Shown here: positions 17,591-64,000 of the stretch, piece by piece
Layout of the letters: every line of letters begins with the position of its first letter
Position numbering within the stretch: position 1 is the first letter of the stretch
DNA from: Glandiceps talaboti
Lineage: Eukaryota; Hemichordata; Enteropneusta; Spengelidae
Assembly (NCBI RefSeq): GCF_964340395.1
Contig: NC_135566.1
Span: 4,909,501 to 4,973,500, forward strand
Length of the DNA stretch: 64,000 nucleotides
Direction of reading: 5' to 3'
Notes under the pieces: generated by a model
Database searches by the model: none
What the model saw: the letters and a program-made list of their open reading frames with translations, nothing else
Told to the model about the DNA's origin: nothing
Position numbers and translations under genes: made by a program

Positions 17591-18149
17591 TATATAATAA
17601 TATCCAGTATAATAAGATATCTCTTTTTGCCTGGCGTGGCCATCCCCTTTCAAATTGTTGACATGTACACAATTTTGTCAACTCATATACAAGCTGTATG
17701 TTTATCTTTAACCCAATCTGATTAAAATCTGAATCGGATGTGGTTTGTTTTCCATTTTGTTCCGAGAGTTGAAGAGGTTATCAGTAGTCAACAACAAAAC
17801 ACACAATACAAAATAAAGGTAAATAAAGGAATCAAGTGGTATTCATACATCGGATTTTAATCCTGATCTTTGGCCCACTTACTTTCACCAATTGTACATG
17901 TGTTTCTTTCACATTCTGGTGGAATCAAGTTCAATTACATTATCACCCAAACCATAAGTACAAAACACCTATCCTAGGATATATACCAGATTTCTCAGGT
18001 CCTCATCACCCTACCACTCATCACACATACAAACATCTGACTGCTGGACAAAATAGGTACATGCTGCATAAAACAAAGACATGCTACATGAAACGGACAC
18101 AAGCTGAATAAAATAGACAAGTTACACAAAATACATGCAGATGGTGTAG

Positions 18150-18760
18150 ACACATGCTACATGAAACCAACACATGCTGTGCAAAACAGACACTGCTACA
18201 TGAAATCAATACATGCTGCACAAAACAGACACCGCTACATGAAACCAACACATGCTGTGCAAAACAGACACTGCTACATGAAATCGACACATGCTGTGCA
18301 AAACAGACACTGCTACATGAAATCGACACATGCTGTGCAAAACAGACACTGCTACATGAAATCGACACATGCTGTGCAAAACAGACACTGCTACATGAAA
18401 CCGACACATGCTGTGCAAAACACACTGCTGCATGAAATCGACACATGCTGTGCAAAACACACACTGCTACATGAAACCGACACATGCTGTGCAAAACAGA
18501 CACTGCTACATGAAATCGACACATGCTGTGCAAAACGGACACTGCTACATGAAACCAACACATGCTGTACAAAACAGACACTGCTACATGAAATCGACAC
18601 ATGCTGTGCAAAACAGACACTGCTACATGAAACTGACACATGCTGTACAAAACAGACACTGCTACATGAAATCGACACATGCTGTGCAAAACACACTGCT
18701 ACATGAAATCGACACATGTTGTGCAAAACAGACACTGCTCCATGAGAGACAAGCTGCACA
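18150..18760 (+). repeat. 39-bp minisatellite, about 15 copies
   Basis: The unit is ACACATGCTGTGCAAAACAG, then ACACTGCTACATGAAATCG. Because 39 is divisible by three, several frames stay open for hundreds of bases on both strands, which explains the long Cys/His-rich open frames here. Edge copies (18060-18150 and 18760-18850) are degenerate. Confidence 0.95.
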
Positions 18761-25600: not shown

Positions 25601-28510
25601 CACTGTATCTCACTATACATACATTTAATATATTGACCAGGAGGGCAGTCAATACAACTGCATACCACACCTCAAGCATACCAATCATATATATACATTG
25701 TTTCACTATACATACATTTAATATATTGACCAGGAGGGCAGTCAATACAACTGCATATTACACCTCAAGTATACACACTGCATATCACACCTCAAGCATA
25801 CACATCATATATACATTGTATCTCACTATACATTAAAAGACATGTGAAAACAGTAAAGATGACTGTATAACTTACCCTGATGAAATTCATTATCAACACA
25901 TGTACGTGAACAGCATTTATCTGGGTCTTCAATGAAAGGTATACAGGTTGGCTGTGCACACATGGCTGCACTACACATGATTGTTTCTCCTCTGTAACAG
26001 GTGCAAGTTGTGCACACATCTTGTCCCTGTGGTGTAAACTTCTTCCCATCCTGCACTTTGTTGCCTTTATGGTCAACGCAGGATATGGCTGCATGTGAAT
26101 AATGTTCAAAAACAGTCAGAGAGGCAGTTTTTCATCATTTTAAATTTTGATTTCAAATCTTCAAATGATGGCTTTCTTAGTTTTGAAAGTGAAATTATGA
26201 GCAAATGTTATTTTGAGTGTAGGGTGACTTTTTAATTTCCAAAAAGAGCATCAAATGCGGTATCGTTAGTGTGACATTAGAACTTAGAAGTGAGGGCACA
26301 CAAGGAGGCAAACATGTTGTTTCCCCAACAGCGACAGGAAACCATGATAACATCACTTTGAGTTTCTGCTGTTCAAAAATAATGCCCCTGCTACAATATA
26401 TTCCATGTGATGTTAGAAATAGAAACCTGGGTGCAAGATATGATCAATATTTTACAGGCAGCCAATAAGAATGATTCAATTGAGGTCAATACATCATCAG
26501 TTATCAGAAAGACAAAAGATTGTATAGTTTGGCCACTAGGAGTGCTGTTCAGAAGCAGCTTTTTGATAGAAAGTGCAAGTTATATGTATTATGTCAAAAG
26601 TTTGTTGCATTCTAAACCAGTCAAAACATTCTAATTTTCTTATTTATAACTTTAAGGAACTCACAGAGCTGTTTTAGCTACATAATACAGTATTAAGTGC
26701 TTCATGTACTGGTCTGCTAATGTTATAGTGTATGTGATTTTAGCCCTATTTCTTCCTCAGGTGAACCACTCTCTTGTGACATCTTAATTAATTAATTAAT
26801 TAATTAATTAATTAAGAAATGACTGCTTGGTGGGTAACCGGAACATGGCGTATCACTTATAAAAGAATATCATTCTCTTCTTCACAGAGTAATTTCTATT
26901 CTTCATATCCTTACTAAAGAAGAACCTTACCTCTTTTGCACAGGAAAGCCGATTTGGTATCACATCGTTGCACGTACCATTGATATGGGTCTTCATTCTT
27001 AGCATAGTTAACATTAAATACCAACTGTCCACATAACTGGAGATCTTCTTCAGATGCCAATCGTCCATACCGTGGCACATACTGGAACACTTCCTCATCA
27101 TGTTCTAAATCTCTTTCTACAAACTGTTCCTCTGCTACTTCCCACTGAGCTGTGTCATTCTTTTTAACGTAAAAATACCCCATCCACCACGAGTACTGTT
27201 CATCGCTGATTGAACTCTGTTCCCAATTGTTTGTGACAATGAACTGCAGTTCTTCATCTGTGGCAACGGTTGCTAGGAAACCACCCAATGTACTACACTG
27301 TTCTTGGGCATCCCTGTAAGTCAGCTTTTTTTCAAAATTGTGGTAGCAGCTACGGCCCTCTTCATAAATCTGCCATTCGTCGGGGCACTCACCTGCCAAA
27401 GACAAACATGGTACATTACGTACAATTCTGAAGTTTGTAATAGTCAACCTTGTAAGTTTTCTCTCTACAGCCTGCAAACTCAGTGATTAAAATGTAGTAT
27501 TTTTCATAGGATACCATATGTAGAATCTGATTGGTTGAATAAGTCACATGGCTGCCTATCTTATAATGATTATGTTAAATATTTGGACATAACCTAGTTG
27601 GCTATACATGTATATGGATTAGGAGAATGACCACTGCACAAATAACCTTAAATGTCAACAGGTGATAATATGCTAATTCTATGCCAATTTTTACAAACTA
27701 TGAAGTGTGGAAATAAATGCTAAATCTGAATTTACTGACTGCACAGACTGTGCTGAAGACAATGCTAACTAGGTCAACCATCCAACCTCCTACCAAGGCT
27801 ATCGCTGTAACCAGATCGATGTATATCACTTGTGTTAAGCTGGCATATTGAAACCACAATGCAAGATTCACTATACGCCCCTCCATGCTAATCCTTTCAC
27901 ATTTAGTTTCACTTCAATGCTTTCTCTACAGGAAACATGGTACTTCTGACTTACAAGATATATCTGAGCTGAATAATAACGAACTCATTACATCGGTATA
28001 CACTTACTGCAGTTGTTTACATACTAAACTACATTTTGAAAAATCTTTCTGTTTTTGCTCATTGCTTTTTGCCCATTAACACAGACTGGTTTGAATGAAA
28101 TCTGATTGTTTTGAAATTGACCCACTTTCAATAGCTTTTTTGTATGACTTTCTGACATCTCTGTGTAAACGGTGCATACACAACAAAGAGCTGTATTTTT
28201 ATTAGAAAATGGCATCATATAAATGGGGCCTAAGCTACATGTATTACAAAGATGGACAGGCTCATAATGTAGCTTCCAACACGTTAATTACCTAGCATTC
28301 ATCTATTTGATTGAAACTTTGCTCTCTATAAACAGTACATCAAACAAGAAACCACTCGCTTCCTTACAAATTAACTATAATCATTTCAGTATCTGCCACA
28401 TCATATGTCAGTCTAACATTTAATTACCAGTCAGTTACTGGATGAACTAGATCAATAGGTCTATAGTGAATGTAATGTATTTGACATCGCTTGCAGTGAG
28501 TAATATCATC

Positions 28511-37096: not shown

Positions 37097-40000
37097 GTAG
37101 GTATAAACGTAAAAATCGAGAGAAATTATTATTTTATCCTGCTAGATAACGGGCACATGTTACAGCAGGTCACATAGGGGTCACTCACAGCATGGATGTA
37201 TTATTGACTAATACATCCATACTCACAGCATGTCACAGCTAGTTGCACTACGTTCATTTGTCTCAAGGTCGACACAAATATTTAATTTTGAATGCTTTTC
37301 TGCAGGTGTATCTTCAGGTAGTCATTCAAAGCATCATAGAGATCACGCCCATAGCCTATCACGCCCCCATACATTCCAAGTTTGCCATTTGTTTTGAATT
37401 CTCAAATGAAAGGCGTTATGTATAGGCCTTGCGGAACAACTTCTGTAGAAAATTTTGTTGACTGTAGTCTGTTAAAGTTGTCATTGATGCCAGCTCCATA
37501 ATGGTAATTGAAAGTGAGTGAAATGCTTGTACCTTGTTTAAGATCAAAGTACATAGTGAAGTCACAATTTTATAACACATCAGGCAATTGTGAGTGTGCT
37601 ATTACTTCAGGTTTAGTGCAAGGATGTCATCAGATGTAATGATGGACATCAACCTGAAATGTTGACAATGAATTATATCAATCATTGCTTTATTTATGAG
37701 ATCAATTATTATTTACTTAAATTTTATGAATGTATTTTGTATTTTGACTTTTATCACAGTTCAGTGGTAAGTGCAATAGGAGACATTATAGCACAGAGAA
37801 TCATCACTGGTAGTAATAGTGGCATTGGTATTAATTGGAGGAGTGTAGCAGCAAACAGTATTTTTGGGTAAGAATATCATACAATGATGGCTAGACTGTA
37901 AGATATGTCATGTTGCCACGCTCTCACCATGGAAGGGTTTGACAAATGTGTGAGGGCGCCCCATCATGGCGTACCTTACAGACTAAACAATGACAAGTTA
38001 GCTGTCAGCTAGTTAACATAGACACAAACTAAAACAATTATTGTAACATGTAAATGGGACTTGCTCCCACTGGTCTTCCATTAGGGAGTGTACATTTTTA
38101 ATTTCCAGGGGGAGGCCGGAGGATTTCTAATGAAGCAAGGGATTTTTATTGATGGCCCCCCCTACAAAAACTGGTATAAATTATCTGGCCCCCCCCCCCT
38201 AAGACTTCTTGTTTTTATTTCATGGCCCCCCCCTGAAACCACTAACAAAAATACGCACAGATGAAACACAGATACAGCAACACATAGATTTGCCAGCAGT
38301 TGCTACATGTATTAACTTATTCCATATTTATACTAACTTCAGAATTGAACCAGTGCACAAAGTTGTTGAATCATGGACACTCATAAAATCACAAATAAAG
38401 ACTATTATTAGTTAAATTGGCTGACAGGATGTCTACTTACAACTGAGGGGTGACAATAGACTACTGGTCTGGCTACACCTTTTCTTCGATTTTTAACCCA
38501 TCACTGACATAAATAAATTAGCAAATAAATGAACAAGTATATATATATATATTACTTATTTATCACAGGTTTGGAAAAAATAGTGCAAAATTGCACCATG
38601 AGGAAACTTTTTTCCATGTGAACATATTCAAATTTTAGGATTAATTTGCAGTGGTTGGTCACACAATCATTTATTATTAATTTAAACACTTCATTAATTA
38701 CACATTTTAGAAACATTTTTAATTGCAGTGCAAATGGAAAACATGTTATTTAAGATTGAAATACATATTAAGACCCTTCCTATATTATAGTATTCATATT
38801 ATCTCTACGCAAAATATAAAACACTTCTGGACTATATTTCAAGAGACTTTAGTAAACTGATGCGCTGAGGGGGGGGGGGGGGGGGCAGTACATGTATCAC
38901 TTCAAAGGGTTGAATAATATTTTTATGAATGCATGGCTTGTTATGAATACATTCCTCACCCAGCACCTGTGAATAATTTTGTGTTTAATTCAAACTCACA
39001 AAAGCTATCATATAATACTTGAACCCTACCATGGTGATAGAATGAAAATTTATTGAAACCCATTACAATATTGGTGAGCTCTATATGGAATTTATTAGGG
39101 ATTCATGTATACAAAATGGCTCAAAGTGCAGTTACTGTTCCACTACAGATTGGGTATCGCCATCTATGAACAGAATACCACATCCTATGCCAGATATGCA
39201 CAACCCAGGTCATTATATGGATGTGTTTGAAACACCAAACACAAATCGAACTGTTGATGACTACCACAACCACGTGCTAACTTAAAAAAGCTCTATGTTT
39301 CAAAACAATTAAATGATGAAGTTGCTATTTCTCGTTTTGCTGAGAAATATATTGTCAGTGTGAACAGTGTTAAAAACTACATTGAACTTTTGAGAAATTT
39401 GGAGAGGATGAAAAACATTAGATCCAGACATCGGTTAGAGGTACAGAAGAAAAGAGAAAACAAGAATTATAATGACTATGACTGGTTGCAGTTATTCATA
39501 AGTGGAACTCTAGAAAAACTGAACGTAAAAGAGCTACATAAATATCTAGACAAGCATAAATTGCCAAAATATAGAAAATTAAAAGGAGAAAAAGTAGACA
39601 TAATATCAACGCACATACTTGGAACACCTGAATTTAGGTCAAGAAAAGTGACTGCAAATGAACTTCAAACTACAACTACAGACATCTGATCAGTGATACA
39701 AACAGTAGTGACTCTGAAAGTGAAAATGCTATAATAGGTGTTATAGACAGTGATGATTGTTTTACTGATAACTCTGAAACTTCAAGCACAGCTGATATCT
39801 CACGTCAGACAGTGATTGTGATGAAACAAGTCCTACACAATTTCATGGGAAAGTTACCTTGAGAAGTGGCAGAGTCGCCGGTCAATTTTTGTTTCACTGA
39901 ATACAAATATTGTGATTTAATAGGTTTGTGCACTGTTTTATCATCAATCCATGTTAAATGCTACTTCTGTAGGACATTGTCCACAGTCAAGTGTTGGGTT

Positions 40001-46075: not shown

Positions 46076-46654
46076 TATAATGATATATGTAAGAGTTTGC
46101 CAGATTTGTCACATTGAGATAAAAACTACACCACTACACCAGACTACAGTTATACTTACCACATGCACATGTAATATACACATTAGTTTGCATGTGCTAG
46201 AAGACAGACCCTAAATTGGGTACGTTCTGAAGATTATAGTGTGCCTGACCGCCCACTTGATATTGCATAGACCAGAGATACATATAGATGTGTATATAGA
46301 AGACAGTACGTGTCAGACAACTTTATTTTATTTTGGTACCATCCTTTGTAAATATATCAAATATACAACATTAATGCAATTCCATTTATTTTACATGTAC
46401 GGTGATCAAATGGACTTCTTTGAGGGTGTGATTCAACATGACATCTTTCTAATTTCTAGTACTACCGGCAACGCTTGATTTTGACTGAACTTGAAATTAC
46501 CCAAATTTAGAACATTGCTGATTTTTGATTGGCCAATGGAATGTGTAGTGGCTGTGTGATATTCTACTTATTTTGTCACAATTATTCTGGAAATGCAATG
46601 TACTAATAAAGTTGCATTTCAGGTATGCAAATGAGGATGGGAACCTCACCCTAA

Positions 46655-46830
46655 AAGCAAGGCTGGCGATGTCTGCTTGAAAGTGAAGTTAATGACATTT
46701 GTTTGAGAATAAGGCCGGTGACTGCTGTTTATAAGCAAGGCTGGTGACCTCTGCTTGACAATGAGGCTGGTGACCTCTGTCTGAAAATGAGGCTGGTGAC
46801 CTCTGTCTGAAAGTGAGGCTGGTCACCCTG
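46655..46830 (+). repeat. Tandem repeat, period about 33 bp
   Basis: Five to six units of AATGAGGCTGGTGACCTCTG plus TCTGAA, the left units more diverged. Confidence 0.9.
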
Positions 46831-47752
46831 GCACTGTTCTGTGAAAATTACAACTCACAGTCAAGGCCGACAAATGGTCAATTTCAGCTTTTTGTCAATT
46901 TCATTCTCACTGTATATTAAAAATGCTGTAAATCTTAGTGGGATACAAGTAACTGGATTGAACCTGTTATTCTAGCAATTGTGGTAGTCAGAGCACAGTC
47001 AACTTTATTAGAGTAAAGACAACCCCTCCCCTCAATCACCAGACAATCCCCCCTCCCCCACTCTCACCATCTGACTCATGGAAATATAAGGAAAAATTCA
47101 CAACAATTGCCCTGTAAACAACTACCAGTTCACTAAAAAAACTGTTCTCATTATTGGAGCTGTCAACATCCATGCTTTTTCTGTACTCTGTAGACAATAA
47201 GACTGTAGACTCACTATGTATCAGGAAAGAAACCCCCAAATATAGTAAAAACCACAATAAAAATTTGCATATCTGTGGTTTCCATTGGAAACAAGTATTA
47301 CAACGTGACAGTAAAACTGAACTTACAAACAAGGAATTTGAACAAATTCATTAAAAGTCTAAATCAAAGAATAAAGAACAAAAATGAAGTAGATATGGGG
47401 CAAAACAAAATTCCGGGAGTAAAAATCAAACAATTTTGTTTTCATGTTAAGGAGTATTGCCTTTTTAGACTTTGTTTCAGACAAACAAGATCAAATTTTG
47501 CTTATAATTTATATACATGGCAGTTAAGTTGGGGGGAAAAGAAATGTTGATATGGGAATCAGTTTTAGTAGTATACAGATTTTGTCTTGTAGTATAGACT
47601 TTAAAAATACTTTTAACAAAAAAAAATTTTCAATATTGCACCCAGGCCACTCAAAGTGACATGATAAAGTATGTACACCTCAATAAATAAATACTAAATA
47701 AATAATGTATAAATTAGCAATTTATCTTCTCCATATGTGTATGTTGGTGTTT

Positions 47753-47933
47753 TCACCGTTGTCCAAAACTACTTTGACTGCTAAAGCTATGGCTTCTGCT
47801 CCTGCTGTAATCACGCGACCTTGATCTTGACCTTGACCTGCTGTAATATGGAGTGTAATAGGTGTCATCTGAATCGTAATTGCTGGAACTTTGAGGTGTT
47901 TCACGATGATATGGCACTGGGCGCTTCCTGGCG
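47753..47933 (-). CDS. SRRM2/3/4: SRRM2/3/4 last exon with C-terminal half of eMIC
   Basis: Acceptor GGTTTTCAG|CGCCAGG, TGA at 47753-47755. Encodes SARKRPVPYHRETPQSSS, then an RS tail (YYSRSRSRSRSRDYSRSRSH) ending SSFGQR. The phase joins exactly to the 51502-51747 exon. Confidence 0.94.
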
Positions 47934-50900
47934 CTGAAAACCAAAAGCAAAAACCTTTCAGTACCCAGAGAAAAAAGAAGATTATTGAAAATTGACAGTA
48001 AGGAGCTACAGAAAGTGGTAATTTGATTTCAATTGATGTCAATTTCATAGTTTTGAACATAAAATTTGTCAGTTTCACATATCAATATTACAGTTTTGAA
48101 ACACATACATAATTTCTGACATTTTTTAAATGCTTTTTCTTGATTTCTTCACAATTTAGAGTTCCAACTGTCAACATGCAAGAGTTCCATACCCATCTTG
48201 ACTCTACCCTTTTCCATGATCACAATGATAAAAAATACCACGAAAAATTAAAAGTAAATGGAGAAACCCAGCACCCTTCGGTGGTACAACAATAACAATA
48301 AACCCAGGATTGAAATCATAACAATATAAAATACTGAACATGGAACACTGAACATGCATTGGATAGTGAAAGGGAAGGAGGTGACATGCAGAGGAGGGAA
48401 GAAATAACATGCATACAAATGGTAGATGAGGAAAGAAACAACCAACACCAATTACAACATGCAAGGGTATAAACAAAATCAAGCTGCTATGCAGTGCTAT
48501 TGTGGTATGGTATGATGCTTTACAAATACAGTTGCCACAGGCAGTGCCAAATTTGAAAATCTGATGGACTGACTATGTTAGATTTTATACCAGTAATAGT
48601 GCTAAAATGTGCTTCTAACACAGTCAATCGGTAAGATTTCTGGTAGACTGTAGAATACGTCATGTCGCTCCACCCTCACTGGCCCGCTCTATCCCGATAA
48701 ATGAGGGCGCCCCATCATGGCGTACTTTACAGGCTAGATTTCTGGCTGTAGTGACACAAGTATTCGACACACCGATTTATGATACCGATGCTTGCGTGTA
48801 TGTATGACCAGGTAGGGTGATAAATATGATACTGCCTTGATTAACATGCAATAACCATGCTCATGAGGTGATTTAAGCTTTACTGATCGAATCATGTGAC
48901 AATCCTTATCATTTGACCTCATGTCAAAGGTTAAAGGTCACAGACTCAATCAATGAAGGATGTTGCATTGGACTGGAAGCTGACAGTTGTTAGTTTTTTT
49001 TCTTGCTAAGTTCAAAATCTATCAAATTTGAAATATTGTTTTAAAACAACTAAAAAATGGATATCTATTTGGAAAAGTTGTACAATCTCATATAAACACT
49101 GAACAAAGTTAATTTGTATACAATAATAAAAAGAAGTTTGAAGAATGTATAAATAGAATAAAATTTGAAGAAAACAATTATCAAAATAGGAAAAATGAAT
49201 AAATGAATGAATGAATGTCAAAAAGGACATTCAAACATTTCAGTAGAATTGTATGAATGTGTGTCGAAAGGAGACACAAACATACAATATATAACAAATA
49301 TCACATATAAAAGAACTTAGTAAAGAACAATTAGTTATCACAAATATATTACTCTTTTTTTTTCTTTTTTCTTTTAAAAAGAAGGTATTTGTGCAATACT
49401 TCGGAAGTAGAACAGTTTCTGATGAAGTGAACCATTCAATCTCATATTTTGTTACTTGATAATTTGAAACACTTTTATCAGGGCTTGGTCATATTCAAAG
49501 TGAGAATCCCTCGAGAATCAGTGCAAACAGTCACCATAGTGACGGTTATACAGATGTTTTGAGCCAAGATTAGTTAAGCTAGATAGCATAATTCTGAACG
49601 AATCAAACAATCAAACAGTCCATGCAGAATAGGACTTTGAACTGATACAGTACATAATACTGTAGTATCTATGAAGAGTCATTCTGAATTCACGACATCT
49701 TCAAAAACACAACTTGCAAGGTAGCAAGGTCTGTGAGAGCATAAAGCAACCGTTACTTGCACAACACTGCGACTATATAGTATATGTTAATTACAGGCTG
49801 TGAAAGTGATATATTAAGAACACGTTATCATGTCAATATATATATATAATGAAAAAGAATTAATTATTTTAAATAAATGAGATATGTTAGTGAGTTTCAA
49901 GGCAGCGGAAGACGTTGATTATTTATGATGAGAGGTGAGTCAGTGTTTCTCCAGTGAGTCCTAGAAAAACAATGGTAAATATCAGTACACACTTATCAAA
50001 CGTCCATTTTAAGACATCTACCGCCTATAGTATCTTGGACTGCGTGACGAATGTCTCTCTCGGTAGTAGGGGGAACGGGAACGTCTGTCGTATCTTCGAG
50101 CTGGTGACCTTTGTAGGGAAATAGGTGGACAGAAGAAAGAGACATGTACAAAAAAGGACAAGATCACAAGACGATAGATACAATACAAATCAATTCACAT
50201 CTTCCACAGTTAAAAAATAAACAAATGGTACACTCCTCCTGTAACCATGGCAATGGAGTCATCATTTCATTGTCAATGTCATCGTTTACAGATCATGAAC
50301 TGATCAACTTTAGAATGAATTAAAATACACAGTCATATAAGTTTGGTGTTGGAAAACATTAATTCATAAATGGTTTGAATTTTGATGCAATTTTGAATAC
50401 CAGGTTACAAAGAGGAGCAAAATGATAAAATCCTGTTGAAAAGAGGAAATCACATAAATTCAGTAACAGTTATTAATAAATTGAATCATTGGAGAAATAT
50501 TCAAAACAAATTTTCAATATCATCTTTTTTTCTCAAAATTTTTTCACTATTTTCTTTGCCAAATTTAACATTTGTGCAAATGCACATTTATCATGAAAGT
50601 TTCAATCTTTTTTTTTGAATTTCATATCAAATGCATAATGAGAAGAAAGAAATATCAGATTCAATTTGATTAAGAGAAACTAATATTGGCTGACTAAATC
50701 AAAATAATGAGTCTAACCACAACATCATTGAAAGACATTTGGTTGGAATCATCTTCATTATTTTTTTTTTTTACAAAATATTTTCTCTCTAGATTGCTTT
50801 TGAAATTGTACCGGTAAATTAAATGTTGATTCATTTTACTGAGGTGTGGACATCAAAGAAAACTTCACATTTTACCAGCAAACCTGACAGTTTTGGACTT

Positions 50901-53900
50901 TTCATATTTGTCTATATTTTGTATTTGTATTTCTTCTAAATTGGAGTAATCAACAGATTCACAAAACAGACATATTTTATAGACTAAAGAGGATTAGATT
51001 GGAGAAATGACAAAAAGTCAGATTATTTTTTTTTGTCACTGTGCTGTCATTTGTTCTGTACTTGTATACTGAGTCAAAGGTCTGAGAGTGTCTTGACTTT
51101 GGTATTTGTAATAACTAGAGTTTACTCAGAATACCATTATGCATCACAAAATTATTTGTGTTCAACTTAAAATCCTGCTATGCTTGCCACTAGGCAGAGA
51201 TACCCCTTGTAAATGTCCTGAGTATGTGGGTAACATACTCTAAATATATAATTTTCACAACTTTGTAGACTAGGTAAGCAGCTAGTCAAATCAGTTCAGA
51301 AATTTTGTTGTGTCAATTTTTTTAAAAATAACATAATATGAACTCCAGGTAGTCATGCCATTATGTTGTCATGGTAACAAACATTAATGTGATGCATTGT
51401 GGTATACAGAATTTAAAGTTCGGAAATTCAGCTTTGCTGGAAGTGAAAAGTTTTTGTGTCCATCTCAAATTTACCATATACTATCAAAACAAACTGCTCA
51501 CCTTGTAATTCGTCTAGCTTCTAGATGACTCGGGGAATCGCGTCGTCTTCTGGGAGGAGACCAGCTCTTTCGCCTTCTTGGCGAAGTGGATCGATGCTCA
51601 TCTTTTGATGGACTGTAATTAGAGTAGCTTGGACTAGCCCGACTTCGTGATGGACTGCGTCTACGTGAAGAGTAACTTGGTGAACGCGAGTGCCTTCTAC
51701 GAGGAGAATAACTCCTGGAATATGATCGCCTTCTTGGGCTGTGAGACCTAAGAATGTACGAAAAATAATCAAATAATCAGAACATTACAAACGACTATAT
51801 TCACAGTAGTAATCATGTTATAATGTTTCAACACACCATATTCTGGTTATCACAAACACCAATGGACACTTTTGGCCACTGGGAGTGCTGTTCGGAAGCA
51901 GCGTACGAACCAGGAGTGAGTCATGATAATTGAGTACTATGGCCTCCTTCGACAAAATCATCATTTCTGAGGTTAGTGTTTCAAAGCAAAATTTGGTGGA
52001 ATTCCCAATCAGTCAAAGAATTCTGCCAACTTTATTTCAGATGTCATTCTGTGCATTTTGTTGATGATTTCATGTACTGCCATGCGATTTTAAGTCTCAT
52101 TTTCCTCACATGGAGCACCCTCTCGAGACTTTTTTTTGTAAAATGACTGCAAGGTGAGAAACCCAAATATGGCATATCAAAGCAGTCTACCAAAATCTGA
52201 CAACAAAAACCACCTGAAGTATATAAACCTATCACTTTGAGGTTTGCGACAGTAGTTAGAGTTTACACTAGGCATGCCTACAGTAAGCAAAAGTCATTCG
52301 TACCTTTTGCGTGAAGTACTTTCATTTGACGATGTGCTATCATATCGTCGTCTATAACTCTTTCTATCATGACCTGGACTGCGGCCCCTGAAAAAACAGC
52401 CAATAACCATCACTGTACGTAATCAATGATTTATCAACATGTAATATTTTTTAATGTCTCAAGGTTTTGGAAATGCACTTGGAGAGGGAATTATGGAAAT
52501 TTAAAACCTTATAATATCCCGGATTGTCTACCCCAGTTTAAACCCACAACCTATAGGCACAGAAGCTGAGCTTACACATCTTTTGGAAGGCAGTGTTTTG
52601 CTGCATATTAAATGGTAGCAATTGCATTCTACTTTATACTGAAGCATACCAAACTATCACTTACTATCAGCTGAATTCAAACCTAGTATTCAGGAAAAAT
52701 GCATAAATGGGTTTATTTTAATACGTACATATACATATGCATATACTCCATGTGATGAGAAATCCCTTATTATGCCACCAATGGTGTTAACAATGCTAGA
52801 ATAACAATTTTAAATGCATTGATGACATGCATTGACATTACAATTTTACTAGAATGGTTAAATCTGGGTTTTATACAAGTACTTTCACCTGAATAAAACT
52901 CAGCTTGTGTTACTTTACCCATATCAATGCTTCAGTCATTAGTTGGCAATGAGCAAGGTGCAAGGTAGGTGGTACAGATATGTTAAGTTACTTTTAATAC
53001 CCATATCAATGCTTCGGTCATTAGTATTTCTTTGCAATGAGCAAGGTAGAATGTACAAATATGTTGTGTCATTTCACCCTTGTTGATGTTCTCTACAAAG
53101 GTCAGCATGACACAGCATACCATACTAGCATCTTGCAGGCTATGAGCAAGGAGAAATTGTTGAGAATGGAGTACATACAGAGAATTTGAATTAATACCTT
53201 CTTGGTGAACCATTCTGTGATCTACGTTTCCTATCCCCTGATGGACTGCGTGACTTGGATCTATCAGACTCTGAGGATCTACCTCTACTGCTCCTCCTTC
53301 TACTCCGTGGTGATATGGATTTGTCACGTCTGCTTCTCTTCTCTCGTGATCTCCGTTTTTCTGGACTTCGTGATCTCTCCGAGGAGGAAGATCGGCTCTC
53401 TCTCCGACTCTTTCTTGAGCCCCTAGATTTGCGAGATTTTCTCTCAGGTGATGACCTGGAAAATTACAAATTTATATTATAATTCTGTTGAGGTTAAGGT
53501 TGTTTTCCCGATTGTTGACAATTTCCAAAAAAATAACATCATGACTCTCCATACTACAACAAACTCATAAAACTTTATGGGAATGACTTTTCAAAAGTTC
53601 CACTGTTGTTAAGTTCAAAGTGAACACAAATTGAATCATTGACAATTTTGCACAGACATACCGGCTTCAGAGTTGAGGGAAGGCTTAAATACAGACATTC
53701 TTGATAGTGTGGTGTTTACATGGGATTAAAATAAAACAGTTTTAATATTTCTCTTTTTCGACTTCTTTGCATAGCCAAATAATTGTACTTAAAAATAGAC
53801 CGAGGCAAGGGAGGTTTTTTTAGTCAGTACTGGGTGGACTCTACGGTAGTGCCATTCTCTCAATAGAAATAATTACAAGCAACATTTAGTGTAGTCGGTA

Positions 53901-56900
53901 AGATACAATATGTCATGCCATCCTGTCAACCATTATCCAAAGAGAAGGCCTAAGGCAGTGGAATGACATTTCATAGCTTACAGTCTACATTCAGAGAAAA
54001 GTTGTGGAACAGAGACTAAGTTATGACAAAGTAAGTCCTCTCCAGTATGATTTGATTTGATCTGATTTTACTTGACTTGATTTGATTACCCATACATATA
54101 TACGACATGCAAATTACTCAACACAAGCCTTACTTAAAAATCTGTTCTCTTTACCTTCACCTCCATTGAGATGACCTGGGTTATGCAGTATCCAAGTCTG
54201 GGTTGAATTCAATGTTAAATGATACAAGTAAAATTAAAGAAAATTGTGAGGGTAGAACATGAGAGAAAAATCTAACCATTCCCATTCACCATGAATTACA
54301 ACTATGGTTTATACAAAGCGTTGACTTTTCTGGAAGCATTTATTAGTAATAAGAAGCAAATTGTGAGGGGAGACATGACAGTAATCTAACAAGTCCCGAC
54401 CACCGTGAATTACTACTGTGGTGTCAAATGAGTGAATTTTTTATGTGAAGTTGTCTTTTCTTTAAAGTATTTACTAGTAATAGATACATATTATAAAAAT
54501 TAGGGTTTTTTTCTAAAAATCTTCATGCATTACTGACGGATGAAGTCAACTGTTGATTTCATATTTTCCTTTGAAATTCAATAAACAATTTAGAAAAGTA
54601 TTGGAAGTCTTGATTACAAACTTAATGAATGGACAAATTAGGCTTGAAACTGAATATAACAATATAGAGCATCTGAAAATTAATTTTCTCATCAATTTGT
54701 CCAGAATAATTATGCATGAGTCAAATTAATCTGCTTTAGGTATTAAGCTGAGTTCACTACGACAAAATGCTATGTTGTAGATGTCCGAGCTACGACAAAC
54801 CAATGGCTGGGTTTTTGTTCTTTTAATAAATATTTACCACCTACATAAGAAGAGTATAACTATTTTTTTTTTTGCTTGGGTTATAGTTTTTAGTGGACAG
54901 AATTTGAAAGAAACATGTTCAAGCCCCAGTAGCTGTAACCGTCTGCTATTTTTTCGTTAAAGGAAAAACCCAGTCAAATCTTTTTGTTTGTCTTTACAGA
55001 GATTGTAGTAAATGTGATGTCATTTCCTGTAGGGGTTTTCCCACAAACCTTTGCAGGAATTCCTCAAAATGTCAGAGCACATGCAAGTGTAGATGTGCTT
55101 CTTTACAAGGTTTTGAAGTTGAGTAAGTTACCATGGCAGAAATACTGACGGCTGACTGGAATTTTGCTTGATGAAAAATACACCAAAACTTTAAATGGCT
55201 CAATCCGTAGCTGAATTACCTCTCTACCAGTGATAGTACAGTGTACACTAACACAGTTTGTATATAAGAAATTATGAAACGGGCACAGACTATTTTTTTG
55301 TTCATCAACAAATTGTAAACCAGCTGGATGCTGATAGGGTTTGACCACTAGTTAAACATACATGCTTTAACACATACAACAACATAAATATCAGTAAATT
55401 GAAAATAGGAAGAAAAAAACAAATGAAAAAATAGTTACTGTTACAGCTTCTGGAACTGTAACATTTCATTATCACAACAAACATACCAAACCAGAAACAA
55501 CTTTGTTAATAATACGAGGGTTACAACATCATCAACAATGGCAACATATATAAAGGTCATAAAAATATCAAATGTTAGGGAAAAATATAACGATTATTTA
55601 AAACTGGAGGGACTAAAAATAAAGAGGCATACACACTCACTTCTCAAGTTCAAATGGTACCTATATTATAAACTTCACATAGAGAAAATGTAAAAGTCAC
55701 AATATCTTGATGAAATAAGAAGGTAAAATATGAGAAATAAAAATGGTAGTTTAAAGTCTGGAAATTGTTTGAAGGGGAAGGATACATTGTGAATTTACTA
55801 TGTTTAATAAACCCTTGGATGCTAGGAGATAAAATGAGTCGGTTTCATTCACTTTCACTAATGTCAGTTGACATCAATCCAAACTTCAGCAAAAAGTGGC
55901 ATATAGGCCTTGCAACACCTTCCATTTATCATGTTGTCAACTGTCTCTATGATCATATAATTTGTAAGTGTGTTTACCAATACAAGCAGATAACAATTCC
56001 TTTAATGGCAGTCTCCTACCAAGGGCTGTATGTCCCTTCCACAAAAGTTCTGAGCAATGCCAGCTCTGTACTGATAAGTGAACATGAATGAAACAATACA
56101 TTTTACCTTGTTTATTAAACATCAAAGTTTTTAACATGCAAGATGTATTGACAAAGGTATCCTTTCCCTTCAAAGAATATTACTAGCTCTGTAGCTGGTT
56201 TTCCTGTATTATGTTTCAAGTGCTACAAACAATGAGTAAAAAACATGTGTTACACCAATATATATACCACTTCTGTATACATACTAGTACTACATGCAGT
56301 ACTTTTTGAAAACTGAAAGCAACTGGTTCTACATATCACAACATTTCATGTCTGTAGATATTCTAGTGCTTGCCTAAAATCAGACACCTGGTGGAAACTA
56401 TAAATTATGTCATATCAGTCAAAAAGTGAAAATTCACAACTTTAAGCCATTTTTCTTATTTACTGCAGTTATCTGCTGAGTAACCACTCAGAGTCAATAG
56501 TTACAATAATGAAACTTGAAAGTCAATTGTTCACCAATACTTGATCAGTCAAGTCAGACTGTAGTTGAAGACACTGTTTGCTTATTGCTGATGTGTGGAA
56601 TCCACTGATGCAATGTCTTTCTTTCTAAGGTCACTCCAAGTCTGTTGGTATGGAAATGCTGACGCCAAGGCTGCTGGTATGGGAAATGCTGATTCCAGGA
56701 CTGTTGGTATGGGAAATGCTGATTCCAGGGCTTTTGCTATGGGTATGATGACTCCAGGTATGTTGTTCTGGGAATGCTGACACAAGGCTGTTGCTCTGCT
56801 ATGAAACACTATGTCACCACAGTCACTCACTGGACAGTTTCAACTAATCATAAAATAACAGTTCTTCTTGTAGACTGATGTTACAAATACTAGATTGTAT

Positions 56901-59900
56901 GTGTGCACATGTCGAGTGTTTCATTCCAATATATGGAATCATGTTGACAAATACATGGTTTTCAATAAAATTTACAATCTCATGCTAAGATTTCATGGAC
57001 TCAGTTTAAAATTTGCATCACCTCAGTCTCTTCCATGCTAGGTACAAGATCATTATCAACTGACAAGTTTTACATTTCAAGGTGAATCTTAGTAGAACCA
57101 GGTGTCATTTTGAACTCAATATGCTAATTAGGACTGAAAAACTTTGGGTGCCATAGACTCAGGACAACAAAACGCATTTTGAACTGAATTGAGCAAAGTT
57201 ATCTTTGTACACCGTACAACATGCTATTCCCATAATCAACTCTCTAAACCTAAAAATTTAACTTTATATAAATGTGTAATCTTTTAATTTCATATGGAAT
57301 CTATTTTTGTAATTCCCTATAGTAGCATCTTTTTCTCCTCATGAAAAAACAAATACATTTTCAGTGAAATGTTTTATACCAGTGCAAAGTCTTACTATCA
57401 AATATTTCTATACATTTCATTCAAATTTGAGAAGAAAATATACCTTGACAATAAAGTGTTCTGTGATATATCTTTCAAGAAAACAATCTCCTCTGTTACT
57501 AGCTAGTTTATATTGACACAAGAGTTTGTTGACAGTAACCATTACAGTTGCGAAGGAAAAAAGAAGGTAAAATCTTGTAACATTTATAACATATAACATA
57601 TGTTTGGTCTAAAGTGTTAAACTGTCATATCCTCTGCAAGGTTTGTTATATGAGTGGCACTGGAAAGTCAATCAAATCTACCACAGTTCCCTTGTCAAAC
57701 CTGGAATTTCCCATAAAATGTGTGGTGCTAGGCATGCAAACCTGTGCAAATTTTACCATGTACTGATGTATTTCCCTTGTCTGTCACTGGGAGTTCCCAA
57801 ACCTTAAGCAAAACACAGCTAGCTTTGCCCCACTTTTATCATTTTTCAAGAATCTTCCATCTCGACAAAAACACTACTTTGAATAATCACACATCAATCT
57901 TTCTTTTTTTCTAGTTATATAATTTTATCAAGGAATTTCTATCTCAGAAAAATCTATTCATTATATACACATATGGGGTGATAGATATGAAAAAATGATA
58001 TATATCAAAATGATATAATAATAATACTTTAGGTTTTCAGTCGTGATGAAGATGATGATGATGGTGATGATGACAATGAAGAGGGGTGACAATACATGCA
58101 TCATTTAAATTATAAGTGTGGAGGAGTCAACTAGTCTAAGGTTTCTCTATTTTTTTTTACTGTAGACTCACCCTGCAGAGGAGTAACTATCGGAATATGA
58201 ACTGCTATCTGAATCACTCTCAGAATCTGAAGAATCATACTTCTTGTGACGACGGTGTTTTCTGGGTGGAGACTCACTTGGAGACCTACAAAGAAAAATA
58301 CTACCATCAATATTCCGTGATTGTACTCTTTGGGATAAAACTACTAAAACAAATGTAACTCCTACCATCAATGTGAAAATCAAATTCTTGGCATTTGTAC
58401 AATTATTTCACCTCAAGTGAGAAGGTTATAACAGAACATAAAGATTGGATTCTCTCATGTAAAATACATTTGTGCGAAATGAGTTGGAATCATTGTCAAC
58501 CAAGAAATCTAATCACATGATTATAATTTCCATGACATTTCAGGTAACGAGAATCATACATGGTCGTATGCATGTCTTTAATAGAGAACTGGCAACAAGT
58601 CCTTTTTATATACACATGACATACATATTATGAAGACGGAAGTCAAATAACTTGAGAAAGTCTTTGAGGTACAAAACTATACTCTAGTATTCAAGTCATT
58701 TTTTTTTTGCAAGTGCTTTTCAGTATGATTTTTTAATATCAAGAATGTCTTACGAAATTACGTGAGGGCTCATCACTGTCGTAAGGGATAAGATTGTTTC
58801 ATGTATATTCATGAGTTATGATTCACTCATTACACAAGTCTGTCAAGTATGTCTACCATCAGCTGTAGCCATGGTTATATTCATTCAACAATATGGAGAA
58901 TCCTGTTGTCTTACCTCTTGCGATGATGCTTTCGCTTCCCTTTGTGTCTACGCTTGCTTGGGCTTGATCTATGAATAGTGGAAATATACATATCAGTTTG
59001 TTATGTTGCGATGTTTACACAATTCACAGACTACATGTCACATCCACTGAAACAAGTAGATAGCCCAAGTAAGTTTTCAACTCTCACAAAACATGACTAG
59101 AGAATCCTGGATAGGAGTACCTGTGGTTGACCGAGATAGGGGTGTGCCACAGTGTGACTAATTTCATTAAATTTCATGAGAGAATGTGGGGAAATATGTG
59201 TTTGCACTTTTGCTAAGCAGCATATTCATTTAAAACAACTACCACGTACTATATGAACATCATTTGTACTTTGTTGAGATGATTTCAATGTGATCATATT
59301 TTATAAAGTCATCCAACATCACAAGACTATGATTAGTTAATATACTGAACTTTTCAAAGCCAATCTTTCATCATAAGAGAGATTCCCTTCAGCATATTAA
59401 CAGTCTGTAAATTGACATTCTCTAAAAAAAAAATATAATCCGCACTTGAATTTACCTTGTGGCCCCATCAGACACAGATTGGTTTTCATACAAATAGTCT
59501 GTAATTCACTAAAGGTAAGCAGTTTCTTTCAAGAATAGGGACACATATGGCCAGAAACACTTTCTGACCACTGGAACCCATTATGAGTCATAAATAGTAC
59601 ATATACGGATATCCTATATGCATGGCAGTATCAAGTAAAACAACATCAAAAGAACAAACCTGTGCTTTTTACTCTTTTTGGATGATTCTTCAGATCTAAT
59701 GAAAAGACAAGAAAAAAAAAAGAGAAAATACATACACAAAAAAGGTACTGTTAAGACTTTGCAGTCAGTAAAACATATTTTTTTATGTGTGCAGAAGTGA
59801 GGGATACCCAATCACCATAGAGACATGACACGAAAAGAGAAGCACTCCTATAGCCAAATAGAACTGGACACAAAGAACTCTATCATAGCAACAAACAACA

Positions 59901-61748
59901 CAATATAGCATTAAGATTAGATCTGCTGCCCCCACACTAAGTGCAATGAAGTGATGACATGACAAACCCAAACCTGACCAGCGAGGGCGCTGTTTCACAG
60001 TGGATGAAAAGTTGACCATTTGGAGAGTTCATCCCATTCTAATTATGATATCTTTTATAGTTAGCTGCTATTAGCTTACACTCCATTAACAGAAAAAACA
60101 AAAATGATAACAACAGGACAGTTTGTAAAAAAAAACTAGGCCTTTTTCAAGAGTGATGTATGCCATAGTACGTGTTTAACAACTCTGGCTGAGCAGTGTT
60201 AGTCAATAAGCAAGGCAACAGACAAAAACAAAAAGATAGAAAAACTAAAATATATAAAGTCAACGAAAAATATAAAGATTTATACCTAACATGGTGCTTT
60301 TTTTTAAAGACATGCTAAGACAGAGAGAATGTGATGTTTAAGAAGAGAGGGTGCAGGGAGTACAAGAAAATTGGGAAATCATCACAAGACGCAGAAAGAC
60401 AAGTTATGTTGTTGTTTTTTAAGTCCGAAACAGAAAAGACAAGACGAGGGACAGATAGAAACAAGGAAAAGCTGGGATAATGGAGACGAAAATGATGAAA
60501 GAAAACATGCAGCTGGAAAAATGTGATTGCTACTTTGTTAGAAATGAAAAACTAAAATCAATGGGGTACAAAAAGGCTCCTACGAGATGTCTGCATGTGT
60601 GGTAGGATGTGTATGCAAACTGAAAAAATACTACAATGTATGCACAGATGACCCTTCTTTTAAGGATATCACAACAGTGAATGGTTTACCTTGAAGTAGA
60701 AATAAATGCCTGCTAAAATTTAAAGACTAAGCACAAGAGAAATGAAAAGAGACATCTCGGGGTTATTTCAATTTCATATCAGCTTCGTAACAACCTCTAG
60801 TTGTGTGAAAGGGGGAGGGGGATTTACAGTGACGATATTCACTGACTTGGGGAGGGGGGAGGGGAGGGAGAGAAAGAAGGTTAGGTAAGAGTTATACACA
60901 TATTCCGGTAAGGCAGTATGGAAACAAAAAAAAATAGAATTGTTATCTAGGACAACAATACTTCAAACAAAACTACAGAAAAAACAGATGTCATTTTTTT
61001 TAAACCACTTTCACAGGAATAAAAAAAAAAAGGAAAAACAAACCGAAATACTATTTTGCTGAGCATGCATCTTGTGGAGAGCTCTTATTTGAAATTTACA
61101 GGGCTACTATGTCAAAGCAGCAGTAGTTAGTATTTAACGATACTGACCAAAAATATTTGTCCAAATTTTTGATCTCCATACAAATTGGGAATTTAAGGAA
61201 GGCATTTTACCTTGCTTCCCTAAAAGGTGAAGGCATAGGAAAGAAAGAAAAAGACATCATTTGCTCTACAAACCAAAATCACAATACACTTCTGCTGACA
61301 AGTCAACCTGTACATGTACCTAAGCTAGACAGGAAGCAATTAAAATGTCAGTCATTATTGTGACAAGACTCAAATCCAACACTGTCAGTTAGTAATCCAA
61401 TCTCAGTAGAAACTGTCGTCTTCTTTTTTATTTCTGCTTCTGAGCACTACTCACGAATAAATTCACATAACATTTTCCCTTCTTTTTCCATTTCTGCTTC
61501 TTAACAAGTATCAGCTGATAAAGTCAGTGAAACTGAAAGTTCCACTTCTGAGGTATTTTTCTGAGAAATTTACATTTAACATGAAAGTTTCATTTTGAAA
61601 GTCATTGTACTAACTGTTGATGGACATTGAGTCTCATGGCGTATAGGGAGGGAGGTATACAGTAGATTACTGTAAAGCTTACCGATCACGTTTTCGTTTG
61701 TGAGACTTTTTCTTCTTCTCCTTGCGAGCTGGAGACTCACTATCAGAC
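47753..61748 (-). CDS. SRRM2/3/4: SRRM2/3/4 splicing factor with eMIC domain (3' part of gene)
   Basis: Nine exons are recognised, read right to left: 61683-61748, 59660-59695, 58915-58968, 58172-58285, 53198-53455, 52304-52387, 51502-51747, then either 50018-50108 (own stop) or 47753-47933. The protein is a chain of Arg/Ser, Lys and Ser/Asp/Glu stretches. The diagnostic part is the end: RRRRDSPSHLEARRITS joined to ARKRPVPYHRETPQSSS, which matches the eMIC (enhancer of microexons) of vertebrate SRRM3/SRRM4 (PRRITSARKRPIPYYRPSP). SRRM proteins act in the spliceosome; eMIC is needed to activate neural microexons. The N-terminal cwf21 domain is not seen and should lie beyond 64000. NKTR and PPIG, also RS-rich, lack this ending. 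More exons may be hidden in the long introns. Confidence 0.92.
48644..48736. mobile_element. Mutator-like MITE copy 4 with perfect 9-bp target duplication
   Basis: Starts TAGACTGTAGAATACG, ends CGTACTTTACAGGCTA; GATTTCTGG flanks both sides (48635-48643 and 48737-48745). Lies in the intron that separates the two eMIC exons. Confidence 0.88.
50018..50108 (-). CDS. SRRM2/3/4: SRRM2/3/4 alternative terminal exon (no complete eMIC)
   Basis: Acceptor CCCTACAAAG|GTCACC accepts phase 2 and encodes SPARRYDRRSRSPYYRERHS then SRSPRYYRR and TAG at 50018-50020. It is coding-like (RS, in frame) and so probably real rather than a cryptic exon. Using it cuts the eMIC in half. Whether it is a last exon with its own poly(A) site or a stop-carrying cassette is not clear; no AATAAA is obvious just downstream. 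Confidence 0.82.
51502..51747 (-). CDS. SRRM2/3/4: SRRM2/3/4 exon with N-terminal half of eMIC
   Basis: Acceptor ATTCTTAG|GTCTC, donor ACAAG|GTGAGC, phase 2-2, 246 bp. RS repeats (RSYSRSYSPRRRHSRSPSYS and ASPSYSNYSPSKDE, like SRRM4 SPSYSRYSP) lead into SWSPPRRRRDSPSHLEARRI T. The eMIC signature continues only if this exon is joined to 47753-47933. Confidence 0.94.
51868..51905 (+). repeat. Dispersed repeat with CTCF-like core, copy 3
   Basis: TTTTGGCCACTGGGAGTGCT then GTTCGGAAGCAGC, matching the 26500-26560 copy (GTTCAGAAGCAGC). Confidence 0.75.
52304..52387 (-). CDS. SRRM2/3/4: SRRM2/3/4 exon (84 bp)
   Basis: Acceptor TTTTTCAG|GGGCC, donor AAAAG|GTACGA, phase 2-2. Encodes RGRSPGHDRKSYRRRYDSTS then SNESTSRK. 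Confidence 0.88.
53198..53455 (-). CDS. SRRM2/3/4: SRRM2/3/4 exon (large RS exon)
   Basis: Acceptor TTTTCCAG|GTCATC, donor AGAAG|GTATTA, phase 2-2, 258 bp. Dense RS content: SRKSRGSRKSRRESRSSSSE, ERSRSPEKRRSREKRSRRDK and SDRSKSRSPSGDRKRRS. Confidence 0.92.
53892..53987. mobile_element. Mutator-like MITE copy 5 (old)
   Basis: TAGTCGGTAAGATAC at the left and GCTTACAGTCTA at the right; the flanking 9-mers CATTTAGTG and CATTCAGAG agree at 7 of 9 bases, consistent with an old duplication. Confidence 0.65.
54957..55172. mobile_element. Single-copy relative of the 8316-8722 element
   Basis: Has TTAAAGGAAAAACCCAGTCA at one end and TGACTGGAATTTTGCTTGA at the other (inverted), with TGATGTCATTTCCTG and CACAAACCTTTGCAGGAAT inside, as in the 41-bp minisatellite unit. 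Confidence 0.7.
55768..56173. mobile_element. TIR element, about 406 bp
   Basis: TTGAAGGGGAAGGATAC at 55768-55784 is matched by the complement of GTATCCTTTCCCTTCAA at 56157-56173. A 5' AGGGAAGGATACCTTGTGAA at about 3358 hints at a relative there. Confidence 0.7.
56638..56795 (+). repeat. Tandem repeat, period about 33 bp
   Basis: Four to five units of GGTATGGGAAATGCTGATTC plus CAGGACTGTT, diverged at the edges. Confidence 0.88.
58172..58285 (-). CDS. SRRM2/3/4: SRRM2/3/4 exon (Ser/Asp-rich)
   Basis: Acceptor CTTTGTAG|GTCTCC, donor GCAGG|GTGAGT, phase 2-2. Encodes RSPSESPPRKHRRHKKYDSS then DSESDSDSSSYSDSYSSA. Confidence 0.88.
58915..58968 (-). CDS. SRRM2/3/4: SRRM2/3/4 exon (54 bp)
   Basis: Acceptor ATTCATAG|ATCAAG, donor AAGAG|GTAAGA, phase 2-2. 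Encodes RSSPSKRRHKGKRKHHRK. Confidence 0.85.
59660..59695 (-). CDS. SRRM2/3/4: SRRM2/3/4 exon (36 bp)
   Basis: Acceptor TTCATTAG|ATCTG, donor CACAG|GTTTGT, phase 2-2. Encodes RSEESSKKSKKH. Very short, but phases and composition fit its neighbours. Confidence 0.78.
59696..61682 (-). other. SRRM2/3/4 intron (2.0 kb)
   Basis: No exon recognised. Very purine-rich on the plus strand, with AGGGGG-type and poly-A tracts (60780-61030), hence pyrimidine-rich in the transcript. A CTCF-like TGACCAGCGAGGGCGCTG is at about 59977. Confidence 0.6.
61683..61748 (-). CDS. SRRM2/3/4: SRRM2/3/4 exon (Lys-rich)
   Basis: Acceptor TCCATAG|GTCTGA, donor GATCG|GTAAGC, phase 2-2. Encodes SDSESPARKEKKKKSHKRKR then DR. 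Confidence 0.85.
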
Positions 61749-64000
61749 CTATGGAATACAACAACATTCTTCATTACAATACACTGCTTTGACAAAGGAT
61801 CATGTTACATTTAGAAAAAGAAAAACACAGAAAGAATATCACAGGGGCAAAATAAAAACGGAAAAGTAGCACATGCGTACTTTATACTAAACTGATATAC
61901 CATTTGTCTTATAGTATATAATTCACCATACAAATTGCACATGTTAGTTTACTTCAAAAACAGACACTGTCACAGAGATGGCATCCAGGAAAAATTAACA
62001 AAATATAAAAACGAAAACTAAGTACAACTGATAGACAGAAAGTGACAGCCGCCGTCTTCTCTCAATCTTAAGTTTAATTGGTATGTGTCTGGAGGTTATA
62101 CAGCGTATCCTTACCTAACGCCTGGGAAGGCCAATTATGTAATGTGTCAAGAAATAATTTTGAGTATTAATACAGATATCAGTAAATGTAAGGTAGGCGT
62201 ATGTGAAGGTAGAATGCGCCTCGGGACAATGTCATTTAATCAAAGTTCTGAAAACTTCTCCAAACTTTGCTTCTGGTTCTTTTGAAATAATAAAGCAAAT
62301 TTGGGGTCCACTTATCTTCTTTTTTCAAGGAAACCGGCAATATTTTGTTTTCCTGTTGAGGTTAACACAATATTTGGCGGCCATATTGAATTCTAAAATG
62401 GTAGCATTTTGATAACATTTTGACCTTAATTTCAAAAATTTGTAAGGTGACCCCAACCTTTTTTTCTTGATTTGAACTGAAAATGGGTTTGAGTTTTCTT
62501 GAACAAAGTAACAGCAAAAGTTTAAAGAGAGTATTTCCGAGGCGCATTTCACTTTAATAGATAATGAGACTTGACATTCATACTTAGAAAGGTAGGTAGG
62601 TGATATATATATAATACTCGGAATACAAAAGTACAAAGATACACAACTTCCAGTGTGGAAACACTACTTTTTTTTCATTTAATTAATATAAATTCATGCT
62701 GCTGGGGGTAACTAGACAAAATAACAATACAGCTGTTGAGTGTCTCAAACTTACAATCAGCGAATAAAGAATTTTTAAATTAAGACAGGAACTTTTGTTG
62801 GATTGATTTATAACAACAGATTTCATCAAGATCAAACCGTCAACTCTGGTAATTTGTTCTCTGGGGTTGTGGTGTGTGGCATACAAACATATACATACTC
62901 TGGGGATTGTGTTGATGTACGTGGATATAAAACGGTTATTGCTAAAATGCATATCATAATTACATAGCATTTAGTGCTTTGATTTATAAACATTTATAAT
63001 ATCATACGTGACATTATCTAAGTCAAACTGACTTCAAACATTGCAAATTTCTAGAATTTGTTTTTTTTCCGGATGTATTTTTTTTATTCTGTAAGTTTAA
63101 AAATGAAGAGTTTGAGCATGGAATACTATCCACATTCGAAGGATCCTTGCAGAAAATCCCGAGACAACTAAAATTTTCATCTTATTTCCAATCCCAGAAT
63201 ATCCACACAAACAACAAAGAACAGGTATACCCAAGTTTCTGGTTTGACTGATAATTCCATAACATGAAGGAAGATCCTGACCTTTATGCAAGAAAAGACT
63301 AAATATTCCATGTGGAAATTCAAGTATGAACTGCCTTTAAAATCATACAGCCTTTAATAGTCTCAATTAACACTGAGTTTCTGAAGGTGGCAAGCCTTAA
63401 ATTCATATTCCATGATATTCATTGCTCCTAGTATAGGTCCTGGACAAGGAAGTCTCAATCCTATGTGTGTGCATTTGTTACAAGTTGACACAATTCTGTT
63501 CTAGAAAGTAAAGATACGTTGACACCTTGTACTCCTTTTTACCAATCTGTCTGTTTATGGTATATTTACTTGCTGTGGCAGTATAAATGGACCTATACTA
63601 GGAAGAAACCAGTTAATTTCATGTGTTGTCAAAATATGAAATAATATCCTGGCAAAGGTTTTGATTGACTGCTTTATTTCTTATTCCAAATAAAATGAAG
63701 TCGATATTTTTATCTACTTTGTTTAATCCACTTCAAACATTGTATCAATACACCATTATTTTCCATCTACTAGTATTTAAAGCTTGCCAGCATCAATGTG
63801 TATATTATTATGTTAAGATTCTTTTTTTTTCCTTTTTTTTTAATTTGGTCTATCATGCAAGCTAATGAGTGCAGATGCATGCCATATCCACTACGTTATA
63901 CAACTACACAATGATACCGGTGTTGCATAATAACTACACCATGCTTCCCTTTGTGCACTGAATACAATGTAAGTAAATATACAACATTTGCACCAAAAGA
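61749..64000. other. Right edge, probably intron of SRRM2/3/4
   Basis: No further RS-type or cwf21-like exon was found on the minus strand. Apart from the TIR element at 62210-62553 nothing is recognised. The gene's 5' part should lie to the right of the window. Confidence 0.5.
62210..62553. mobile_element. TIR element with one YY1-like motif
   Basis: TAGAATGCGCCTCGGGA at the left and TATTTCCGAGGCGCATTTC at the right are inverted. On the minus strand the interior matches 15224-15631, including TTAGAATTCAATATGGCCGC. Confidence 0.75.

Follow-up and report, generated by a model that had tools for sequence, protein, structure and literature searches.

A probable splice switch within the eMIC domain at the 3' end of a single SRRM2/3/4 gene from a probable hemichordate

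In Drosophila melanogaster, the single SRRM2/3/4 gene Srrm234 (CG7971) can end in either of two ways: a proximal exon, which has its own poly(A) site, stops translation, and a distal exon completes the eMIC (PMC8797185). According to work on the fly and excerpts of a review, the eMIC drives neuronal microexon inclusion in other animals (PMC8797185, PMC10551640), and the same excerpts give the production of several isoforms from one Srrm234 gene as the ancestral bilaterian state and describe human SRRM2 as having no eMIC (PMC10551640). The eMIC of amphioxus Srrm234 is, in the available text of a further report, the most active eMIC protein tested (PMC12626424). Here we analyze the 3' end of an SRRM2/3/4 gene within a 64,000-base stretch of genomic DNA from a probable hemichordate (C19:4909501-4973500; hereafter the window, in whose coordinates positions are given unless a contig is named), where the arrangement of exons probably encodes an eMIC on/off switch of one form or another. 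Three exons are central to this reading:

Exon A, the common donor exon, 51502..51747, minus strand: 246 nucleotides (nt), phase 2 at both ends, rich in arginine and serine (RS); carries the N-terminal portion of the eMIC, to ...SPSHLEARRIT (SRRM_C profile positions 2-55, 28.4 bits)
Exon B, the distal last exon, 47753..47933, minus strand: SARKRPVPYHR... finishes the eMIC (SRRM_C profile positions 56-66); the frame runs to ...SSFGQR and then TGA
Exon C, the proximal competing exon, 50018..50108 with its acceptor at 50108, minus strand: phase 2; encodes the RS peptide RSPARRYDRRSRSPYYRERHSSRSPRYYRR, followed by TAG at 50020-50018

Translation of the minus strand shows exon A ending in ...RRRRDSPSHLEARRIT plus two bases, and exon B, entered in phase 2, beginning with SARKRPVPYHRETPQSSS. 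Joined in this phase, the two exons encode a 141-residue peptide, of which residues 28-92 match positions 2-66 of the Pfam profile for the eMIC (SRRM_C, PF15230; cut-off 27 bits) at 54.8 bits (E 1.4e-14). Most of the matched positions (54/65) fall in exon A, and the last 11, in exon B, add about 26 bits. A 34-residue peptide spanning the junction scores 58.3 bits, exon B alone 16.6 bits, and exon A joined to exon C 20.4 bits, below the cut-off; exon A alone (28.4 bits) and exon A joined to a non-RS site at 49960 (28.3 bits) both fall just above it. Because of these last two values and the score of the straddling peptide, the cut-off is not a clean separator, and it is the junction core that marks the difference. 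Moreover, the match is not explained by RS bias on its own, since neither the upstream RS exon at 53455-53198 nor the exon C peptide by itself matches SRRM_C. No relative of the eMIC was found in the PDB at E values up to 1, and searches of viral and genome contig collections, which are not meant for animals, gave 26 and 241 pattern matches to the 141-residue peptide, none of them confirmed.

The original prediction for this DNA, made from the letters alone, had proposed that a phase-2 join of exons A and B rebuilds the eMIC, and this observation holds, as do the coordinates, phases, and peptides it gave. Its phrase 'almost residue for residue', said of the eMIC of SRRM3/SRRM4, was tested against the Pfam profile rather than by a direct alignment with SRRM3/4. 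The 'half-eMIC' it assigned to the A-C product is a loose term, because exon A carries far more than half of the matched positions.

The splice sites that join exons A and B are strong when scored with textbook weights. The donor of exon A (CAAG/GTGAGC) lies in the top 0.10% of 4098 minus-strand GTs, and the acceptor of exon B (score 10.9) lies in the top 0.28% of 3516 minus-strand AGs. Were the intron after exon A retained, translation would stop one codon on (...RRITR, then stop). Exon B has a candidate second 3' splice site six bases from the first (47927-47933, minus), and the pair could toggle Ser-Ala in the eMIC core; use of the inner site would lower the SRRM_C score from 54.8 to 40.2 bits:

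Tandem acceptor of exon B, CAG/CGCCAG/GAAGCG, 47928..47933 with the exon starting at 47927, minus strand: score 10.2; would drop six bases, Ser-Ala, from the core

The RS coding of exon C is beyond chance. In the frame opened by the 50108 acceptor, which has the same phase as that of exon B, the exon encodes 30 RS-rich residues before its TAG; an RS peptide ending in TAG had been predicted. Phase-2 joins were made to every AG site of either strand outside its last 300 bases, and 60 of these 6867 opened frames of at least 20 residues with a combined arginine and serine fraction of at least 0.45. Fifty-nine of these are inside exons of the SRRM2/3/4 gene, exons that were themselves recognized partly by RS content, and the remaining site (58300) is 15 bases before one such exon and reads into it. 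Three of the 60 belong to exon C, namely its acceptor and two internal AGs. Exon C thus resembles the other exons of the gene and nothing else in the window. We also considered exon C as a copy of the second half of the eMIC (SPARRY...SPYYRE against SARKRP..PYHRE), and dropped this idea given the lack of a Pfam match to exon C alone.

Profile searches of the whole genome (590,416,875 bases in 47 contigs) place these exons in a single gene. At E values up to 1, with two candidates examined, SRRM_C matches one locus, that of exon A; the search went exon by exon, so that a diverged copy could escape, and among 14 control genomes it gave one match, below the cut-off. The N-terminal cwf21 domain (PF08312) is found at C19:5006386-5006460 on the minus strand (38.8 bits), upstream of exon B by about 49 kb. 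In a search of the PDB, the exon that encodes it (MYNGIGL...) aligned with human SRRM2 over residues 1-81 of the human protein (105.8 bits, E 5.3e-30). Within the window, positions 54002-64000 gave no Pfam match to cwf21, the cwf21 exon lying about 33 kb beyond the window. Given one SRRM_C locus in 590 Mb and a cwf21 exon that shares its contig and strand, the locus is a single SRRM2/3/4 gene, the type named in the original prediction; it starts like SRRM2 and ends like SRRM3/4. The order and strand of the two ends suggest that one transcript contains them both. The vertebrate pattern, in which a dedicated eMIC paralogue (SRRM3/SRRM4) exists beside a separate SRRM2, was not seen in this genome, where the one SRRM_C locus is linked to an SRRM2-like N-terminus. 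A second cwf21 match, in a short frame at C12:3742883-3742993, covers profile positions 11-44. The cwf21 domain is also carried by U2SURP.

In the switch that we propose, the donor of exon A would be shared between exons B and C. Splicing to the distal exon B would complete the eMIC, and use of the proximal exon C would break it; most likely an RS tail and a stop would take the place of the SARKRP half. The A-C product would then lack eMIC activity and be a general protein of the SRRM2 kind. By analogy with the fly, we infer that this form is inactive on microexons, although the SRRM_C profile is itself no proof of this, because exon A alone passes the cut-off. The same analogy suggests that the choice is regulated by tissue, with neurons using exon B: A-to-B splicing would occur where the eMIC is wanted and A-to-C splicing elsewhere. 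An ELAV-type protein might regulate the choice, as in the fly.

Several observations weigh against this proposal. That exon A alone exceeds the Pfam cut-off is one. The acceptor of exon C is moderate (score 6.6, top 3.95% of the same 3516 AGs), and acceptor-like sites with higher scores and no RS coding are present at 50432, 50238, 49960, and 49730. The ELAV-type motif UUUNUUU is not enriched near exon C: it occurs three times between C and B against 5.2 expected, and six times upstream of C against 2.8 expected (P 0.098, mononucleotide shuffles); control by ELAV is for this reason an analogy with the fly and nothing further. Exon B and its 3' untranslated region (3'UTR) do have an excess (nine against 1.8 expected, P 0.002), which lends ELAV no support because the upstream stretch 58400-64000 is enriched too (31 against 10.5 expected); in 53457-58000 the count is nine against 6.9. 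Additionally, the 2084 nt between the stop of exon C and the acceptor of exon B (47934..50017, minus) contain no AATAAA or ATTAAA, where 3.2 are expected, and a weak in-frame donor that overlaps the TAG of exon C permits its reading as a cassette. The hexamers were likewise absent from 3.9% of 1000 dinucleotide shuffles, and their depletion is modest, since 36 of 620 overlapping 2084-nt windows on the minus strand and 17 of 620 on the plus strand also have none. With neither hexamer present before exon B, a separate proximal 3' end after exon C would have to form without a canonical signal; variant hexamers do follow exon C, for example AATATA at 49350 and then T-rich sequence. Two features bear on how exon C ends:

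AATAAA, candidate distal poly(A) signal, 47004..47009, minus strand: the one AATAAA/ATTAAA in those parts of the interval between exon C and 46500 that were scanned; implies a 3'UTR of about 0.75 kb
Alternative reading of exon C as a symmetric cassette of 87 nt, 50022..50108, minus strand: weak donor GGCG/GTAGAT, with the TAG inside the donor

Two of the rival explanations concern how exon C works within a switch, and both are contained in the claim that a switch in some form exists. As an 87-nt in-frame cassette, exon C would add 29 RS residues after EARRIT, ahead of the RKRP motif, keep the tail and 3' end of exon B, and leave the TAG in the intron. The A-C-B join made in this way is open to the stop of exon B, with the 29 residues inserted within the eMIC; the donor at 50022, with a score of 4.1, exceeds the inferred donor at 53198 (2.1), and the absence of AATAAA/ATTAAA between C and B fits a cassette as well. 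All five other measured exons are in phase 2-2, yet this counts for little, because four of the five came from a search that demanded it (the exon at 53455-53198 was hand-picked), and the odds of a cassette are lowered slightly on this account. The donor is, moreover, weak (top 9% of GTs), phase 2 is automatic whenever a G precedes an in-frame TAG, and the fly counterpart ends translation and is a terminal or poison exon. On balance we regard the cassette as unlikely and favor an exon C that ends at its stop. A related form of the switch, needing no alternative 3' end, is similarly doubtful: exon C would act as a 29-residue wedge that disables the eMIC in its middle while the C-terminal tail is kept, and the TAG would be read only if the weak donor fails. 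If true, it would give three output states, with the eMIC on, the eMIC wedged, or the protein truncated. Less likely again is a long composite last exon for which C merely provides an alternative acceptor. Exons B and C would then both use the AATAAA at 47009, and acceptor choice alone would set the outcome without alternative polyadenylation. This would suit the finding of the sole AATAAA/ATTAAA after exon C at 47009-47004, but it requires a 3'UTR of about 3 kb that contains the strong exon B acceptor unused, and variant hexamers are present, such as the AATATA noted above with T-rich sequence downstream.

The remaining rival denies the switch. Exon C may be unused or noise, with the gene making the eMIC form only, or truncating it by retention of the intron after exon A; stronger non-coding acceptors are close by, and read-through of the exon A donor stops at once. 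Against this, not one of the 6867 AG sites away from the exons of the gene opens such an RS frame, and we consider it very improbable. The original prediction had suggested that the physical switch is visible here, with the eMIC cut at the decision point. This has partial support: the anatomy fits an on/off choice, there being a common donor inside the eMIC and a stop-containing competitor, but exon C, which has no AATAAA/ATTAAA between it and exon B and a possible phase-2 donor at its stop codon, may or may not be terminal. As a separate observation, the fairly strong acceptor-like site 49960 (minus; score 8.6), 57 bases past the stop of exon C, would open a non-RS tail of 21 residues in the phase of exon A and could be a further competing acceptor.

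Upstream of exon A, the window contains three further candidate exons of the gene:

Upstream RS exon, 52304..52387, minus strand: 84 nt, phase 2-2
Upstream RS exon, 53198..53455, minus strand: 258 nt, phase 2-2; its inferred donor is weak (2.1)
Upstream RS/acidic exon, 58172..58285, minus strand: 114 nt, phase 2-2

Just past the point where the gene probably ends, a 26-base tandem repeat (46651-46827) contains several acceptor-like sites. Other tandem arrays in the window have a 31-base unit (4381-5304, about 30 copies, 91% match) and a 39-base unit (18148-18745, 15.4 copies, 92% match); the latter is open in several frames, and the 204-residue frames that it yields on each strand are probably not genes. 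On the plus strand, two frames at 11629-12246 and 14030-14590 belong to a gene of the triose-phosphate/nucleotide-sugar transporter family (Pfam TPT, 77.3 and 37.7 bits), and a 142-residue open frame at 39261-39686 has no Pfam match at E values up to 0.01. A C-type lectin domain frame is found at 26917-27486 on the minus strand (Pfam Lectin_C, 40.6 bits). Rfam and tRNA scans gave no match. Elsewhere in the genome, contig C40 (12741-44951) has three copies of mitochondrial COX1 at a spacing of 15,435 bases, every one with 13 internal TGA codons. The repetition is probably an assembly product in which copies of the mitochondrial genome were concatenated head to tail. Frames taken as ND2, COX1, and COX2 occur there in succession (ND2 and COX2 were named by inspection), in a 4341-base stretch of 53% G+C. 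The ND2 and COX1 frames have no AGA; AAA is absent from ND2 and occurs in COX1 only at three places ahead of the likely start (before MDLQ...). These mitochondrial features fit an enteropneust hemichordate, the probable source of the DNA.

An eMIC cut at the decision point has already been published for the fly, and the present locus adds an example to that known type of switch. Among papers judged by title and the start of the abstract, we found none on an Srrm234 switch in a hemichordate or echinoderm. Such a description may nevertheless exist, because the eMIC was introduced in 2019 in a paper that reportedly compared animals. What is added here is the placement of a phase-2 intron that splits the eMIC, together with a competing proximal exon, in a probable hemichordate, and so probably in an ambulacrarian.

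Comparison with vertebrates reveals both shared and divergent features. The gene has the N-terminal cwf21 region in common with human SRRM2, and differs from it in having an eMIC, which excerpts of the review deny to SRRM2 (PMC10551640). As in vertebrate SRRM3/SRRM4, the eMIC is near the C-terminus and the last exon is needed to complete it; in the available text of a mouse study, Srrm4 without its last exon was non-functional, but the truncated protein was barely detected (PMC3464207). The same text gives the exon 13 probe of mouse Srrm4 as coding nucleotides 1521-1827. Nucleotide 1521 is the last base of codon 507, a codon inside the stretch conserved in Srrm3 (478-525). Should exon 13 begin at this nucleotide, the mouse intron would likewise be in phase 2 inside the eMIC, and possibly it is the same intron. 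Opposed to this reading of the probe coordinate is the statement in that text by which the conserved region is encoded in the last exon; the exon would then have to begin before codon 478 (PMC3464207). Unlike the locus described here, vertebrate SRRM3 and SRRM4 are dedicated neural genes controlled by transcription (PMC8797185). Amphioxus Srrm234, to judge from the text available, is comparable as another Srrm234 with an eMIC from a non-vertebrate deuterostome (PMC12626424).

The closest likeness is to Drosophila Srrm234, also a single gene, with a competing proximal stop exon and a distal exon that finishes the eMIC. The fly-type arrangement of a common donor inside the eMIC and a proximal stop exon is present here at the level of sequence, with the stop lying in a possible donor. 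The two differ in that the fly proximal exon has a poly(A) site of its own, whereas exon C is followed by no AATAAA/ATTAAA before exon B and has a possible in-frame donor. Taken with the fly, the locus fits the presence of such a switch in the bilaterian ancestor, in place of which vertebrates use separate genes.

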